Shown here: piece by piece, positions 31,185-40,750 of the stretch | How the letters are laid out: the number at the start of each line of letters is the position of its first letter | Numbering within the stretch: position 1 is the first letter of the stretch | Assembly: GCF_012927165.1 (NCBI RefSeq) | Contig: NZ_JABBGA010000032.1 | Coordinates: 1 to 43,528, forward strand | Direction: 5' to 3' | DNA from: Zoogloea dura | GTDB lineage: Bacteria > Pseudomonadota > Gammaproteobacteria > Burkholderiales > Rhodocyclaceae | DNA: 43,528 bases | Program-made: the position numbers and the translations under genes | The notes under the pieces: model-generated | What the model saw: the letters and a program-made list of their open reading frames with translations, nothing else | The model's database searches: none | Told to the model about the DNA's origin: nothing

Positions 31185-31805
31185 TTACTGGTCGGCTTTC
31201 CATTGTTCCGCGTTGGATTGGCCGGGAGTTCGCCCCGGCGGGCGACCTCCTTTCTTGCTTCGCCAAGAAAGGAGGCAAAGAAGGCGACCCGCCTCCCCGG
31301 TCATTCGCTGCGCGAATGACTGCCCTGCGCTGCTCACGGCAGGCGGCCGGCGCGGAACTCGCCCTTCGGGCTCAAACAGCCGCGCCGGACTACCCCGCCT
31401 GCCGCTCCGCGGATCAAAGGGTCGGAACGGGCTTTTCGCAAACACCGCGCGTTTACTGAAGCAGGGCGTGATGATCAACGCACAAGCAAAACCCAAGCGC
31501 CTCGCACCCACCGGTCTTTCCGCAGAGGCTCGGTGTTTGCTGAAAGCCCGTTCTGACCCTTTGATCCGCGCAGCAGCGGGCGGGGCTTTCCGGCGCGGCT
31601 GTTTGAGGAGGCGTAGCCGACGAGTTCCGTGCCGGCCGCCTGATGCGAGCAGCGCAGGGGAGTCGTCCGCAACGCGGACGACCGGGGAAGCCGGGTCGCC
31701 TTTCTTTCCCCCTTTCTTTGGCGACGCAAAGAAAGGGGTCGCCCGCCGGGGCGAAATCCCGGCCAATTCAACTCAAAATAAAGGAAAGCCGCCCAGCAAA
31801 GGCAC
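31185..31805. repeat. Long palindromic intergenic repeat, copy 1
   Basis: About 620 bases made of two inverted arms of roughly 265 bases (31185-31450 and 31532-31805) around an ~80-base centre. Outer arms read GGCCGGGAGTTCGCCCCGGC on the left and the complement on the right. Each arm itself carries a hairpin with a GCTTCGCC-type loop (CCTTTCTT...AAGAAAGG). Arms differ at many positions, so it is not a recent duplication. It lies between the 3' ends of convergent genes. Frames through it give only repeat-like, Arg/Pro/Gly-rich translations and are not counted as genes. Confidence 0.9.
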
Positions 31806-35208: not shown

Positions 35209-35673
35209 ATGGAATCCCGCGAACGTTTTGTCGAACTTGTCCGGGCCTTGCCCCTGGTCTCGGTGGACCTGGTGCTGGTACGCGACCGGCGCGAAGTGCT
35301 GCTCGGCCTGCGCACCAACCGGCCGGCCCAGGGCAGCTGGTTCGTCCCCGGTGGCCGCATCCTCAAGGACGAAAAACGTACCGACGCGCTCGCCCGCGTC
35401 GCCGCACGGGAGCTGGGTATCACCGATGTGCACGCGCTCGAGCCCGGCTTCCTCGGCCCCTTTGAACACTTCTACCCGGATTGCTTTGCCGGCGACAACG
35501 GTGTCTCCACCCACTACGTGGTGCTCGCCCACCGCATCGACGTGCCGGCCGGCTTCGAGATTCCCGGCTGCGACGACCAGCACGAAGTCCTGCGCTGGTG
35601 GCCGATTGCCGAAGCGCAGGCCAGCAGCGAGGTTCACCGCTTCACGCGGGACTACCTGCCGTTGTTGGGCTGA
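35209..35673 (+). CDS. gmm: GDP-mannose mannosyl hydrolase (Nudix)
   Basis: 154 residues. The Nudix-like box has the shortened form typical of GDP-mannose hydrolases: FVPGGRILKDEKRTDALARV followed by AARELGI, lacking the full GX5EX7REUXEEXGU pattern. FEHFYPDCFAGDNGVSTHYVVLA is the family block that replaces part of the usual Nudix box context. The enzyme hydrolyses GDP-mannose to GDP and mannose and so tunes mannose supply to exopolysaccharide. GAAGG lies ahead of the ATG. The manC fragment at the left end of the window belongs to the same metabolism. A palindromic repeat begins 70 bases downstream. Confidence 0.92.
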   Translation: MESRERFVELVRALPLVSVDLVLVRDRREVLLGLRTNRPAQGSWFVPGGRILKDEKRTDALARVAARELGITDVHALEPGFLGPFEHFYPDCFAGDNGVSTHYVVLAHRIDVPAGFEIPGCDDQHEVLRWWPIAEAQASSEVHRFTRDYLPLLG

Positions 35674-35743
35674 GTCAGGGGGCGGGATGGCCGGTGTGGG
35701 GCCCGGGATGGCCCCTTGCGGGGGCGGCTTCAGCTGCCTGCTC

Positions 35744-36371
35744 GTGCCTTTGCTGGGCGGCTTTCCGTTGTTTGGCGTTGGATTGGCCGGGAATTCGCCC
35801 CGGCGGGCGACTCACTTCTTTGCTTCGCCAAAGAAGTAAGCAAGAAAGGCGACCCGCCTCCCCGGTCATTCGCTTGCGCGAATGACTCCCCTGCGCTGCT
35901 CACGCCAGGCGGCCGGCGCGGAACTCGCCCTGCGGGCTCAAACAGCCGCGCCGGACTTCCCCGCCTGCCGTTCCGCTGCTCGGCGGGTCGGGACGGGCTT
36001 TTCGCAAGCACCGCGCGTTTGCTGAAGCAGGGCGTGATGATCAATGCACAAGCAAAACCCCAAGGTCTCGCATCCACCGCCTTTTCCGTAGAGGCTCGGT
36101 GTTTGCTGAAAGCCCGTTCTGACCCTTTGATCCGCGCAGCAGCGGGCGGGGCTTTCCGGCGCGGCTGTCTGAGGAGGCGTAGCCGACGAGTTCCGCGCCG
36201 GCCGCCCGATGCGAGCAGCGCAGGGGAGTCGTTCGCGCAGCGAACGACCGGGGAAGCCGGGTCGCCTTTCTTTCCCCCTTTCTTTGGCGACGCAAAGAAA
36301 GGGGTCGCCCGCCGGGGCGAACTCCCGGCCAATCCAACGCCAAACAACGGAAAACCGCTCAGCAAAGGCAC
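35744..36371. repeat. Long palindromic intergenic repeat, copy 2
   Basis: Same element as at 31185-31805 in the same left-to-right orientation, estimated by eye at 85-90% identity. Inverted arms 35744-36015 and 36096-36371 with an ~80-base centre that is the best conserved part (contains GGCGTGATGATCAA). Outer ends read GTGCCTTTGCTGGGCGGC and its complement. Located between gmm and the 21-base array upstream of the sensor kinase. Confidence 0.9.
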
Positions 36372-36480
36372 TCCAGCGCGAACCCAAAGTGCTTACAGCA
36401 TCACTCCGCAGGCTTGGCACCGTGGGTTCTGCGACACCCTCTGAAGCCCTGGCAGAGGAATTCCAGTCGTCACCCACCGG

Positions 36481-36734
36481 ATTCACATCCGCCACCGCGT
36501 AACTCAATTCCGCCACCGCATAACTCAATAAATCCATCGCGGATGTCAGTTAACGAACTTGTTAACTGACATCCGCCGCCCGTTAACTGAGATACGCGAC
36601 CCGTTAACTGACATCCTGGACTCGTTAACTGACATCCGGGGCGCGTTAACTGACATCCGCGACTCGTTAACTGAGATACGCGACTCGTTAACTGACATCC
36701 GCAGCCGCGTGATTGAGATACGCGGCTGCGGATG
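36481..36734. repeat. 21-base tandem repeat array capped by hairpins
   Basis: Units begin at 36561, 36582, 36603, 36624, 36645, 36666 and 36687 with consensus GTTAACTGACATCCGCGAC plus two bases; an eighth, diverged unit starts at 36709. Two alternating unit types differ at linked positions (GACATCC or GAGATAC). Degenerate, in-phase units extend upstream to about 36481. Left cap: 16-base perfect inverted repeat 36539-36554 / 36561-36576 with 6-base loop. Right cap: 14-base perfect inverted repeat 36696-36709 / 36721-36734 with 11-base loop. Nothing of this kind is annotated elsewhere in the window. Confidence 0.92.
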
Positions 36735-36910
36735 CCGGATAAGGAGTGGCCATGCTGCGGAGCAGCGAGGGGGAGGAAAGTCCAGTGATGTAGTGCACCG
36801 CAGGCGAGCGTCTTATGTTGTTTTACATTCTCCAATGTCATCCGATGATGTCTCCGGAAGGATGTAATCCACATACAGGTGCGAATCCCGCAGAGCCAGG
36901 TACAGCGTAA
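36735..36910 (+). other. Leader region of the hybrid sensor kinase gene
   Basis: 176 bases between the 21-base array and the kinase ATG. It contains GTCCAGTGATGTAGTGCAC (36779-36797), closely matched at 41406-41424, and AT-rich TTATGTTGTTTTACATT (36813-36829), which may include the promoter. No typical -35/-10 pair is convincing. Possible structured 5' leader. Confidence 0.4.
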
Positions 36911-39900
36911 ATGGAGAGTGGCAAGGACAGCCCCCCCGCCCACTCGTGGATTGGCTTGGACTCCTTGCGTCTCCAGCTGGCGGTGGCGCTTGTGGCGCTG
37001 TTTGGGGCCTTGATCTTCGGCGTCACCGCGCTGACGCTGTATTACTTCGAGAGCCGCTTCATCGAGCAGATCCGTCATGAACAGGAGAGCAATGTTCATG
37101 GGGTGGCCACCTGGATCCGGCAGGAGGTTGCCGAAAGAACCCGCGTTCTGGAAGACCTGGCAAAAGGTCTGCCCATCGGCTCGTGGAGCGATGAGGCGCG
37201 GGTGCAGGCCTATCTGGACGACAAGTTCGTGGCCTCGTCACTGTTCTCCCGCGACATCTACGTCATCTCGCCGGCAGGCCGGCGCATTGCCGAGCTGCCA
37301 CGGCGCAAGGGCGTCGGCACCGACTACCGGGATTCCCGATATGTAAAGCAGGTGCTGGAGACGCGGCGCCTGGCCATCATGCCCCTGCTCGGGCGCTTCT
37401 CCGGCCAGCCGAACCTCATTTTTGCGATACCCGTGCTCGATGATGCGGGCACCGTGCGCGCCATTCTGTGTGGTTCGGAGAGCCTCAGCCCCGGCAGCCA
37501 CTTCTACATCTCCGACATCCTCAAAAATGGCCGGGCGGGGGGCTACCACGTCTATTCGCTGAAGCACGATGTCTATGTGGCCAGCACGGATCCCACCCGT
37601 GTGCTCCAGCCCCTGCCCAAGCCGGGGGTCAATCCGCTGCTCGATCGGCGCAGGAGCGAGAACTACACCGCCTTTGACCTGACCACCGACTCAAAAGGCC
37701 TGGAGATCTACTCGGTGGCGGAGAACCTGCCCGAGCTGGGCTGGAATATTGCCGCCTACATGCCGGCCGACGAGGTGCGTGCGCCCTTTGTGAGCCTGTC
37801 ACGCACTCTCTGGCTGACGGCGGTGTCTGGAATGCTGCTCGTCGGCGGGCTGGTGTGGTGGTTGATGAAGCACAAGCTCAAACCGCTCGAGGATGCGGCA
37901 AGACAGATCGCCCGACATCGGACCGGTGACCCCATCCCGACGCTGCCGGAGCGGGGAGGCCGCGAGGTGCGCGAGCTGTTGGCTGTCTTCAACCGGCTCC
38001 ACCAGCAGGTACAGTCGCAATACGCAACCCTCAAGTCCGAACGCGACGAGCTGGACCGCAAGGTGGCCGAGCGCACCCGTGAGCTGGTCCAGCGCGAGCA
38101 GTTCATCCGCACCATTACCGACGCCCTGCCCGGGATGGTGGCCTACTGGGATGCCGACCTTCGGAACCGCTTTGCCAACGCCGCCTATCTCAAGTGGTTT
38201 GGCCGGAGGCCGGAGCAGGTCCTTGGCATGCACATGCGAGAGTTGCTCGGCTACAGGCTCTTTGCGCTTAACGAACCTTTCATCACAGCGGCCATTGGTG
38301 GGGAGTACCAGCAGTTTGAACGCGAGCTGATCACCCTCGATGGTCAGCCTACGATGACCTGGGCCCAGTACATCCCCCACAAGGTCGACGGGCATGTACT
38401 GGGCTTCTTTGTGCTGGTGACCGACATCTCAGCCCTCAAGCAGGCCCAGTCGCAGCTCCGCCAGCAGGCCAGGGAGCTTGAAGATCTCTACCAGCAGGCT
38501 CCCTGCGGTTACCACTCGCTGGACAAGCATGGCATTGTCCGGCGCATCAATGAATCCGAACTGCGCTGGCTCGGCTATGAGCGTGACGAGGTGCTCGGCA
38601 GGCCCATCACCGACTTCATGACGCCGGAGTCGGCCATATTGTTCAAGGCCCGTTACCCGACTTTCCTTGCCGCAGGCCACATCGGCGACCTCGAGATCGA
38701 ATTCATCCGCAAGGACGGTGCCCAGCTGCCCGGCCTGGTGGCGGCAACCGCGGAATACGACGAGCGGGGCGACTTCCTCATGACACGCTCGGTCGTCCAG
38801 GACTACTCGGGCCTGCGCAGCCAGCAGCAGAACCTGCGCAACATCCTGGCCTGGGCCCCCATCGGGGCACGCATCGTGTCCCTCAAGAGCAATGTCGTGC
38901 TCTTCATGAACCAGCGCTTCCGCGACATGCTGGGCGGCAAGGACGACCTGGCGGAAGAGGGGCTCGACGCCGGCGAGTTCTATGTGGATCCGGCGGCCTT
39001 CGAGAGCATCAACCGGGCGGTGCGGGCCGGCGAGCTGGTGAGCAACCAACTGCTCGAGATGAAGACCCCCCGCCAGCCCGGATCACCCCACCGCTGGGTG
39101 CTGGGCACCTTCATGCGCATCAGCTACGAAGGCCAGGACGCCAAGCTGGCCTGGTACTACGACATCACCGACCTGCGGGCGACCCAGAACAACCTGGCCG
39201 AGGCCCAGCGCATCGCCCGCATGGGCAGCTGGCGGCTCGACCTGGCGAGCAACGCAGTGGTGTGGTCGGAGGCGCTGTACCGCATGTTCGGTGCCGATCC
39301 GGCCAAGCCGCCACCCGCCTACAGCGAGCAGGAGGGCTGGTTCGAGCCGGACAGCTGGAAGCTGCTCACCCGGGTCCTCGCCCACACGGTGGACACCGGC
39401 GAAGCCTACGAAGTCGAGCTGCAGACCCGCCGCACCGATGGCACAAAGGGCTGGATCATGGCCCGTGGCGAGCGCATCTGCGACGCCGCCGGCCATCCGG
39501 TGGCCCTGCAGGGCGTCTCGGTGGATATCTCCCTGCGCAAGCACAACGATCTGCTGCTGGCGCGGGCCAAGGAGGCGGCCGAAACCGCCACGCTGGCCAA
39601 GAGTGCCTTCCTGGCCAACATGAGCCACGAGATCCGCACACCGATGAATGCCATTGTCGGCCTCACCCACCTGCTGCGCACCGGCGAGACCACCCCGCTG
39701 CAGGCCGAGCGCCTCACCAAGATCGAGGCGGCCAGCCTGCACCTGCTGTCGATCATCAACGACATCCTCGATCTGTCGAAGATCGAAGCGGGCAAGATGA
39801 CCCTGGAGGCCCATGACTTCGCCCTGGACCAGGTCCTCGACCATGTCTGCTCCCTGCTCGCCGAGCCGGCCAGGGCCAAGGGCCTGACGCTCGAAGTCGA

Positions 39901-40750
39901 CGGCGATGGCGTGCCCCTGTGGCTGCGTGGAGACCGCACCAGGGTGCGCCAGAGCCTGCTCAACTTTGCCGGCAACGCTGTAAAGTTTACCGACAAGGGC
40001 AAGGTCATATTGCGCGCAAAATTGCTGGACGAATCCGACGCCGGCCTGCTTGTGCGCTTCGAGGTGGAAGACACCGGCATCGGGCTCGCCGCAAGCGAGC
40101 TGGCCAGGCTCTTCCAGGAGTTTGAACAGGCCGACAGCAGCACCACGCGTCAATACGGCGGCACCGGCCTGGGCCTGGCCATCACCAAGCGGCTGGCCAG
40201 CCTGATGGGGGGCGAGGTGGGCGCCGACAGCACACTTGGCCAGGGCAGCCGCTTCTGGTTCACCTGCAGGCTGCAGCGTGGCCACGGCGCCATGCCGACA
40301 GAACCGCGCCTGCCCGCCGACTCCGGGATCAAGTGCTTGCGCAAACACGGCGGCGCAAGGCTGCTTCTCGTTGAAGACAACCCGGTCAACATCGAAGTAG
40401 CCCTCGAACTGCTGCACGGCGCCGCAATGAGCGTGGACGTAGCCGAAAACGGCCAGATCGCAATCGACAAAGTGCAGGCCGGAGATTACGACCTGATCCT
40501 GATGGACATGCAAATGCCGGTGATGGACGGCCTGCAGGCCACCCGCAGCATCCGCGCCCTGCCGGGCTGGCAGACCAAGCCCATCCTGGCCATGACCGCC
40601 AACGCCTTCGGCGAAGACCGCGACGCCTGCAAGGCCGCCGGCATGGACGACTTCCTGGTCAAGCCGGTGGACCCCCATGAACTCTACGCCAAACTGCAGC
40701 ACTGGCTGCCAGCCCCGCCTCAAGAGGAGGAGGAAGTCAGCCGGGACTGA
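36911..40750 (+). CDS. Hybrid sensor histidine kinase with dCache, HAMP, four PAS domains and receiver
   Basis: 1279 residues. TM1 ~21-45; a long periplasmic dCache-like sensor (~46-295, with [13 protein letters not shown] and [15 protein letters not shown]); TM2 ~297-322; HAMP ~323-380; coiled coil; PAS domains at ~400-515, ~525-640, ~645-755 and ~765-880; HisKA with phosphorylated His906 ([15 protein letters not shown]); HATPase_c with the N, G1 and G2 boxes ([24 protein letters not shown]); and a C-terminal receiver with Asp1199 ([13 protein letters not shown]) and Lys in FLVKPVD. No HPt domain, so a separate phosphotransfer protein is expected. Periplasmic small-molecule sensing is usual for dCache, ligand unknown. 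No response regulator adjoins it. The ribosome site is weak, with CCAGG about 11 bases before the ATG. Confidence 0.95.

Follow-up and report, generated by a model that had tools for sequence, protein, structure and literature searches.

A family of degenerate, dyad-symmetric 21-bp repeat arrays in Zoogloea chromosomes: possible docking sites for a dimeric protein

Upstream of a gene for a sensor kinase with several PAS domains, the stretch of Zoogloea dura DNA analysed here (the window; 43,528 nucleotides) carries a tandem array of 21-base units, and the question is what kind of element this is. The preliminary description had offered a decayed coiled-coil gene, a structured RNA or a multi-site operator. 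With a symmetric weight matrix the array was delimited as 13 units of 21 bp in a single unbroken register at positions 36476-36744 (all 12 intervals are 21 bp; no strand is assigned), which is longer than first noted; its end units are degenerate and score low (5.4 and 7.3 bits). Tandem Repeats Finder reported period 21 at 36561-36702 (score 186) and at 36488-36529 (score 77). The repeat was found where it had been placed: seven near-identical units of the GTTAACTGACATCCG and GTTAACTGAGATACG types (36560-36702 by Tandem Repeats Finder and weight matrix, no strand assigned; unit starts 36560, 36581, 36602, 36623, 36644, 36665 and 36686) are followed by a diverged eighth starting at 36707, and four further in-register units lie on the left, the one at 36539 being inverted. 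Both unit types are present as described; they are interspersed, not strictly alternating, with GAGATAC-type units at 36581, 36665 and 36707.

The two inverted repeats that had been taken as caps at both ends of the array also exist. The inverted unit 36539 and the adjoining direct unit form a perfect 16-bp inverted repeat with a 6-nt loop (36539-36576), and the last units make up a palindrome at the right end with a stem of 14-15 bp (36696-36734), neither feature having a strand. The left hairpin starts 63 bp inside the delimited array and is therefore no cap, so that the picture of a capped array is only half correct; it exists because unit 36539 is inverted relative to its neighbour, and we read it as a by-product of unit inversion, interior to the array. 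Outside the array, the left neighbour is a NUDIX hydrolase gene (35209-35673, plus strand; Pfam PF00293), whose orthologous DNA adjoins an array, L089, in the sister species G010. Between this gene and the array lies a copy of the dispersed inverted-repeat element E549 (35783-36332, no strand; about 38 genomic copies), which was not found at L089. The right neighbour, identified by Pfam, is the gene of the hybrid sensor histidine kinase with its PAS domains (36911-40750, plus strand), which begins 167 bp beyond the end of the array.

The window element belongs to a family of chromosomal arrays that so far has been found in few Zoogloea genomes only. In the Z. dura genome (G000; 5.83 Mb, 83 contigs) the exact pattern GTTAACTGANATNC occurs 29 times in 8 contigs and the same pattern read in reverse not once, so the pattern is not due to chance. 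A three-unit sequence profile gave 170 matches in this genome at E ≤ 0.01 (both strands counted, 150 of 897 candidates scored), and at least 16 arrays between genes, each inspected in its locus, are present. About 14 of the 16 are independent, since L079 and L081 share a flank, as do L012 and L013: the array on contig C29 (L081) is a shortened copy of that on C17 (L079) including the upstream flank, and L012 and L013 have a common right flank with a protein that is 98.9% identical. At L079 (start of C17) and L081 the end of thiC is duplicated together with the array, and the C29 copy has lost most of its units, an instance of loss by deletion. L012 and L013 lie near the ends of contigs C24 and C56, with different genes on the left and the DUF6537 protein in the common right flank, which could reflect either a segmental duplication or an assembly effect.

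When the 21-base consensus was searched in related genomes, arrays were found in G010, taken as Zoogloea sp. UWPOB_ZOOG1 (6 arrays), and in Zoogloea sp. SB3 (3 arrays, by a four-unit motif pattern in a collection of genome contigs). With similar arrays in the same genome and in relatives, the earlier view of an organised element, as opposed to a random private minisatellite, held up. At an E value of 0.001, 3 of 23 Zoogloea genomes gave matches, namely G000, G010 and, weakly, G017 (two weak matches, the best with E 8.2e-4); among the candidates scored, no match was seen in 20 of the 21 genomes other than G000 and G010. A scan of the family with stricter filters gave matches in 2 of 395 genomes. 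The number of candidates scored per genome was 150 in the scans of the own genome and of the genus and 13 in that of the family; as only part of the first-look candidates were scored, the counts are lower bounds, and the family scan could miss weak arrays. Among 60 relatives, an exact 14-mer occurred in the own genome and in G010, plus a single match in G055 that is read as chance, and a 30-base pattern had no match in the collection of genome contigs. No description of these repeats was found in the open-access literature searched.

What the arrays have in common is geometry. In 22 arrays of two species, the interval between units is a multiple of 21 bp in 282 of 284 cases; the two exceptions measure 22 (L013) and 39 (L081). 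Of the 22 arrays read, 21 have 11-17 units; the mean pairwise identity of units within an array is only 0.52-0.74. The composition of the unit is dyad-symmetric about one central base (consensus KAWBTSAVWTM, the central S being C or G). In 14 own arrays, taken without L081 and L013 and comprising 211 in-register units, compositional asymmetry about the unit centre was 0.056 and about the spacer centre, where a low value follows from the period, 0.075; all other centres gave 0.39-0.74. The count took in all in-register units from the first hit of an array to the last; because the weight matrix had been made symmetric during its construction, the symmetry may be slightly inflated. Each site consists of two half-sites (e.g. 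GTTAACT, GGATNT, GGAANT) that form a degenerate inverted repeat round a central C or G, and in 127 units from seven own and three G010 loci the half-sites came from a small alphabet (TTAACT, GGATGT, GGATTT, GGATCT, GGAATT and others). Units stand in both orientations with the register kept: of 91 scorable neighbours, 62 share an orientation and 29 are opposed.

For seven own arrays the orthologous site in G010 or SB3 also carries an array (the window array and L089; L008 and L146; L077 with L086 and L159; L078 with L145 and L087; L012 and L090; L080 and L085; L083 and L088), with long flank matches that are 82-98% identical. Between such arrays units have been gained, lost and rewritten. In the three best-aligned pairs (39 units), by hand tally 18 of the 429 cells of the 11-bp core and 33 of the 390 other cells had changed; one of the three, L012/L090, opposes a constraint on the core (6 of 143 in the core, 4 of 130 outside). 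All 78 aligned units gave 65 of 858 in the core and 165 of 780 outside, many of these alignments being uncertain and sharing the motif; the alignment of L012 with L013 was not counted owing to its 1-bp phase shift. Whole arrays can also be missing. G010 has both flanks of the C4 array but no array between them (L224), and in G012 and G003 the two genes that enclose the C56 array (L082) have none between them (L228, L230), so that the arrays are dispensable. These cases come from a search for array-free sites with six flanks in five genomes; three of the six were matched strongly. The junctions of the array-free sites in G010, G012 and G003, which bear on target site duplication, align too loosely to be defined. 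At the C67 and C7 loci the stretches read in nine and three relatives, respectively, hold no array, and the neighbouring genes differ there.

The preliminary description had made hairpins a defining feature, and the suggestion that a structured RNA or a cruciform is the functional part draws on two observations: the strand of the window array folds far better than its shuffles (z -10.2, with two local inverted-repeat stems dominating the fold), and perfect stems of at least 10 bp are present in 9 of 22 arrays. They are absent from the other 13. Moreover, if the symmetry served pairing, the halves of the unit should covary. After repeated units and units lacking the strict core had been dropped, the mean number of complementary pairs was 3.16 against 3.34 expected in 154 distinct strict-core own units (z -1.5), and 3.21 against 3.42 in 58 units of G010 (z -1.3). 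Positions 9/13 pair below chance in both species (z -2.7 in own units, -3.1 in G010), and an excess of pairing at positions 6/16 is confined to own units (z 2.5, against 0.1 in G010). With no covariation of the halves the unit is not a hairpin, and Rfam returned three matches only, all far below the gathering score. Both the hairpin caps and the structured RNA were given up, and we regard an RNA or cruciform function as very unlikely.

A coding function fares still worse. Read as protein, the window units give LTDIRDS heptads, and one 102-aa ORF spans the seven good units, so a live or decayed coiled-coil gene had been considered. In 21 arrays (L081 left out; the 22-bp interval of L013 shifts its frame), the LTDIRDS-type frame is stopped in 16 on one strand and in 15 on the other; it is without stops on either strand in two arrays (L084 and L009), and the orthologous array L089 has 3 and 2 stops by strand. 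The other four frames contain 123-145 stops each, against 35 and 25 in the LTDIRDS-type frames, because the motif holds TAA and TGA there; the openness of the LTDIRDS frame arises because the DNA motif itself excludes most stops in it. The exchange of Asp for Glu and the synonymous Ile codons, which had looked like protein-level constraint, are what a degenerate symmetric DNA motif gives. The LTDIRDS repeat had no Pfam hit, and as the open frame is not kept among orthologous arrays, a coding repeat is hardly credible.

The position of the arrays speaks to the operator reading. Eight of the 16 own arrays lie between convergent and eight between codirectional genes, and none between divergent genes (raw counts from ORF composition and Pfam, with no genome baseline); without L081 and L013 the figures are 6, 8 and 0 of 14. 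Flank orientation was taken from ORF composition only for the left side of L077 and the right sides of L078, L079 and L081. One array (L008) touches the end of a LysR gene, and the extragenic placement at gene ends is like that of REP and BIME elements. Outside the arrays, one site above 15 bits was found in 158 kb of own-genome loci, as compared with 0-3 in five first-order surrogates, so that single sites in this DNA are no commoner than expected by chance; within arrays 174 of 230 units exceed this score. An ordinary operator was rejected on these grounds. A multi-site operator of the kinase gene at 36911 would fit the short distance between array and gene, but the genes flanking the family are mostly unrelated, half of the arrays lie between convergent genes, and single sites stay at chance level; we consider it highly improbable. 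Round the array loci, the recurrent frames belong to E549, to the arrays, to common paralogues (sensor kinases, chemotaxis receptors and an elongation-factor-like pair) and to the duplicated flank of L012/L013. Among the ORFs of 15 own array loci (L081 left out) and 29 others, no candidate for a binding protein was found beside the arrays.

Several other repeats are found in the neighbourhood. E549 is bounded by 29-bp terminal inverted repeats that lie some 520 bp from each other (76 matches to its ends in the genome) and occurs in the window a second time at 31218-31766. Nine of the 16 arrays lie within 150 bp of an E549 copy, L012 and L013 not being independent and L080 sharing sequence with both. 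In three orthologous comparisons (window/L089, L080/L085 and L083/L088) the relative has the array without E549, so E549 probably arrived after the arrays, and it seems to insert near them. A 25-bp sequence resembling the end of an IS (GTGTCNGNAWTTTTGTGTTYGAGGC) has 7 genomic copies, and 5 of these lie no more than 70 bp from an array, always in the same orientation; it is found in G000 on C1, C17, C22, C56, C67, C36 and C78 and in G010 on C95 and C184. It stands on one side of 5 of the 16 own arrays and on both sides of none, and no IS was seen attached to it; in G010 C184 it runs on into what reads like the start of a gene. The REP-like sequence GGCGGCTTCAGCCGCC (at most 2 mismatches) is present within 65 bp of three arrays (L082, L085 and L087) and also at position 35723 of the window, and in G010 the array-free C4 site is taken up by a palindrome pair of similar kind.

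Outside the genus, the strict four-unit motif pattern found 55 stretches in the collection of genome contigs, of which 10 are of the Zoogloea type and 45 are not. The ten are the 6 of UWPOB_ZOOG1, the 3 of SB3 and L113, from a Proteobacteria bin (ALPHA1). The printed units of L113 are identical to those of the UWPOB_ZOOG1 array L152; to judge from its sequence, L113 is probably a mis-binned Zoogloea contig. The 45 other stretches are homogeneous (unit identity 0.79-1.00) and at least 11 are 7-base repeats; they were therefore treated as ordinary minisatellites matching by accident and not counted as members, and the idea of a wide family across phyla was dropped. L107, L122, L136, L109, L124, L141 and L157 are homogeneous 21-bp arrays, mostly in Bacteroidales bins, that are palindromic well beyond the searched core, and several of them have TAATTSAATTA; the period and central base that they have in common with the Zoogloea arrays are possibly a coincidence. 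Directly beside two of these arrays, in one Prevotellaceae and one Planctomycetaceae bin, there are homologous proteins with 49% identity (L109, 6409-7143, and L157, 546-1274). In viral contigs GTTAACTGACATCCG was matched once in each of 6 stretches, the 150 bases read on either side holding no array, and a viral origin was discarded; the four-unit pattern was seen in two stretches of one viral contig, a homogeneous array with identity 0.97. Plasmids and phages gave no match at E 0.01 with the low-complexity filter on.

Register and symmetry have thus persisted where the sequence has not, neither pairing of the halves nor an excess of single sites is seen, and these features together point to a dimeric protein that reads geometry at a spacing of two turns. 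Dyad symmetry without pairing of the arms, combined with a fixed helical phase, is what a protein-bound phased array should show, and the arrays have both. We tentatively favour the reading that the arrays are phased docking arrays for a putative homodimeric protein, BIME-like in their placement, although our confidence in it stays somewhat below even; of the three options in the preliminary description, the multi-site protein-binding array is the one that comes closest. The protein would bind each unit, its two halves being read separately, and because the sites recur every two helical turns (21 bp), the dimers would align on one face of the DNA and could bind cooperatively. Coated in this manner, an array might serve as a structural or insulating node where genes end, as proposed for BIMEs, and not as an operator. 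A bolder version, which we hold to be rather doubtful, is a dedicated chromosome-organising system of the Zoogloea clade, in which a putative homodimer would occupy 11-17 dyad sites with interchangeable half-sites at gene ends; the small alphabet of half-sites would then let arrays rewrite units quickly with the spacing kept.

The main rival is a neutral or selfish minisatellite without host function, perhaps borne by a non-autonomous mobile element of the BrickBuilt kind, which spread earlier and is now turned over by recombination. We take it to be a serious possibility: copies are dispersed between genes with variable unit number, arrays are present or absent at C4 between sister species and at C56 with respect to G012 and G003, strong matches are confined to 2 of 23 Zoogloea genomes, the flanks of L079/L081 and L012/L013 are duplicated with the array, and 5 of the 7 copies of the 25-bp IS-like end are close to an array in one orientation. 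That arrays sit among other repeats such as E549 and this end also fits parasitic DNA. A satellite of this sort is harder to reconcile with the strict register and dyad symmetry, which are unexpected at such divergence (a judgement guided by rough simulation only), with unit inversion in register, which does not follow from slippage, and with flanks in which no leader, tail or paired terminal repeats are common to the arrays. Multiple phased binding sites are typical of the ends of Tn7-like and IS21-like transposons, and the arrays could be remnants of such ends, where a transposase bound many subterminal repeats; the IS-like 25-mer beside 5 of the 16 arrays would agree with this. Transposon ends are, however, directional, whereas the sites here are dyad-symmetric and of mixed orientation, and none of the loci of the 11 IstB matches in the own genome has tandem units, so that IS21 was rejected as a source and remnant transposon ends in general appear unlikely.

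Bacterial minisatellites usually consist of near-identical copies, but in these arrays (22, in two species) the unit sequence is fluid while symmetry and 21-bp phase are kept, and this separates selection on the geometry of a site from selection on its sequence. The natural set of arrays offers a means to seek a new DNA-binding or chromosome-structure protein.

Among known systems, the arrays can be compared with BrickBuilt of Porphyromonas gingivalis, a minisatellite-MITE with 19 dispersed intergenic copies and a 23-nt tandem unit (PMC4596501). The likeness extends to a short tandem unit, many intergenic copies, variable unit number, places conserved from strain to strain and a narrow host range (PMC4596501). 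BrickBuilt is there given a leader and a tail, terminal inverted repeats and imperfect direct repeats, in contrast to the Zoogloea arrays, which have 21-bp, dyad-symmetric, degenerate units in both orientations and, in the own array flanks read by eye, no common leader or tail with terminal inverted repeats (PMC4596501). With REPs and BIMEs they have in common that they are palindromic, clustered and extragenic, and PMC3733652 describes GTAG REPs as stem-loops with a GTAG end and pairing arms, in which the spacing within dimers and groups varies. Unlike REPs as portrayed there, the Zoogloea units have no GTAG tag in their consensus and no stem-loop with complementary arms, their halves pairing no more than chance overall (PMC3733652). 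CRISPR arrays likewise have repeated units at regular spacing; the Zoogloea arrays differ from them in being without unique spacers of the usual length and in that the unit itself varies. Plasmid iterons and ParR-type centromere arrays are phased tandem sites about two turns apart that are bound cooperatively, and it is this phasing that the Zoogloea arrays resemble; iterons, however, are direct, near-identical repeats, and in contrast to both of these systems the Zoogloea arrays are many and chromosomal.
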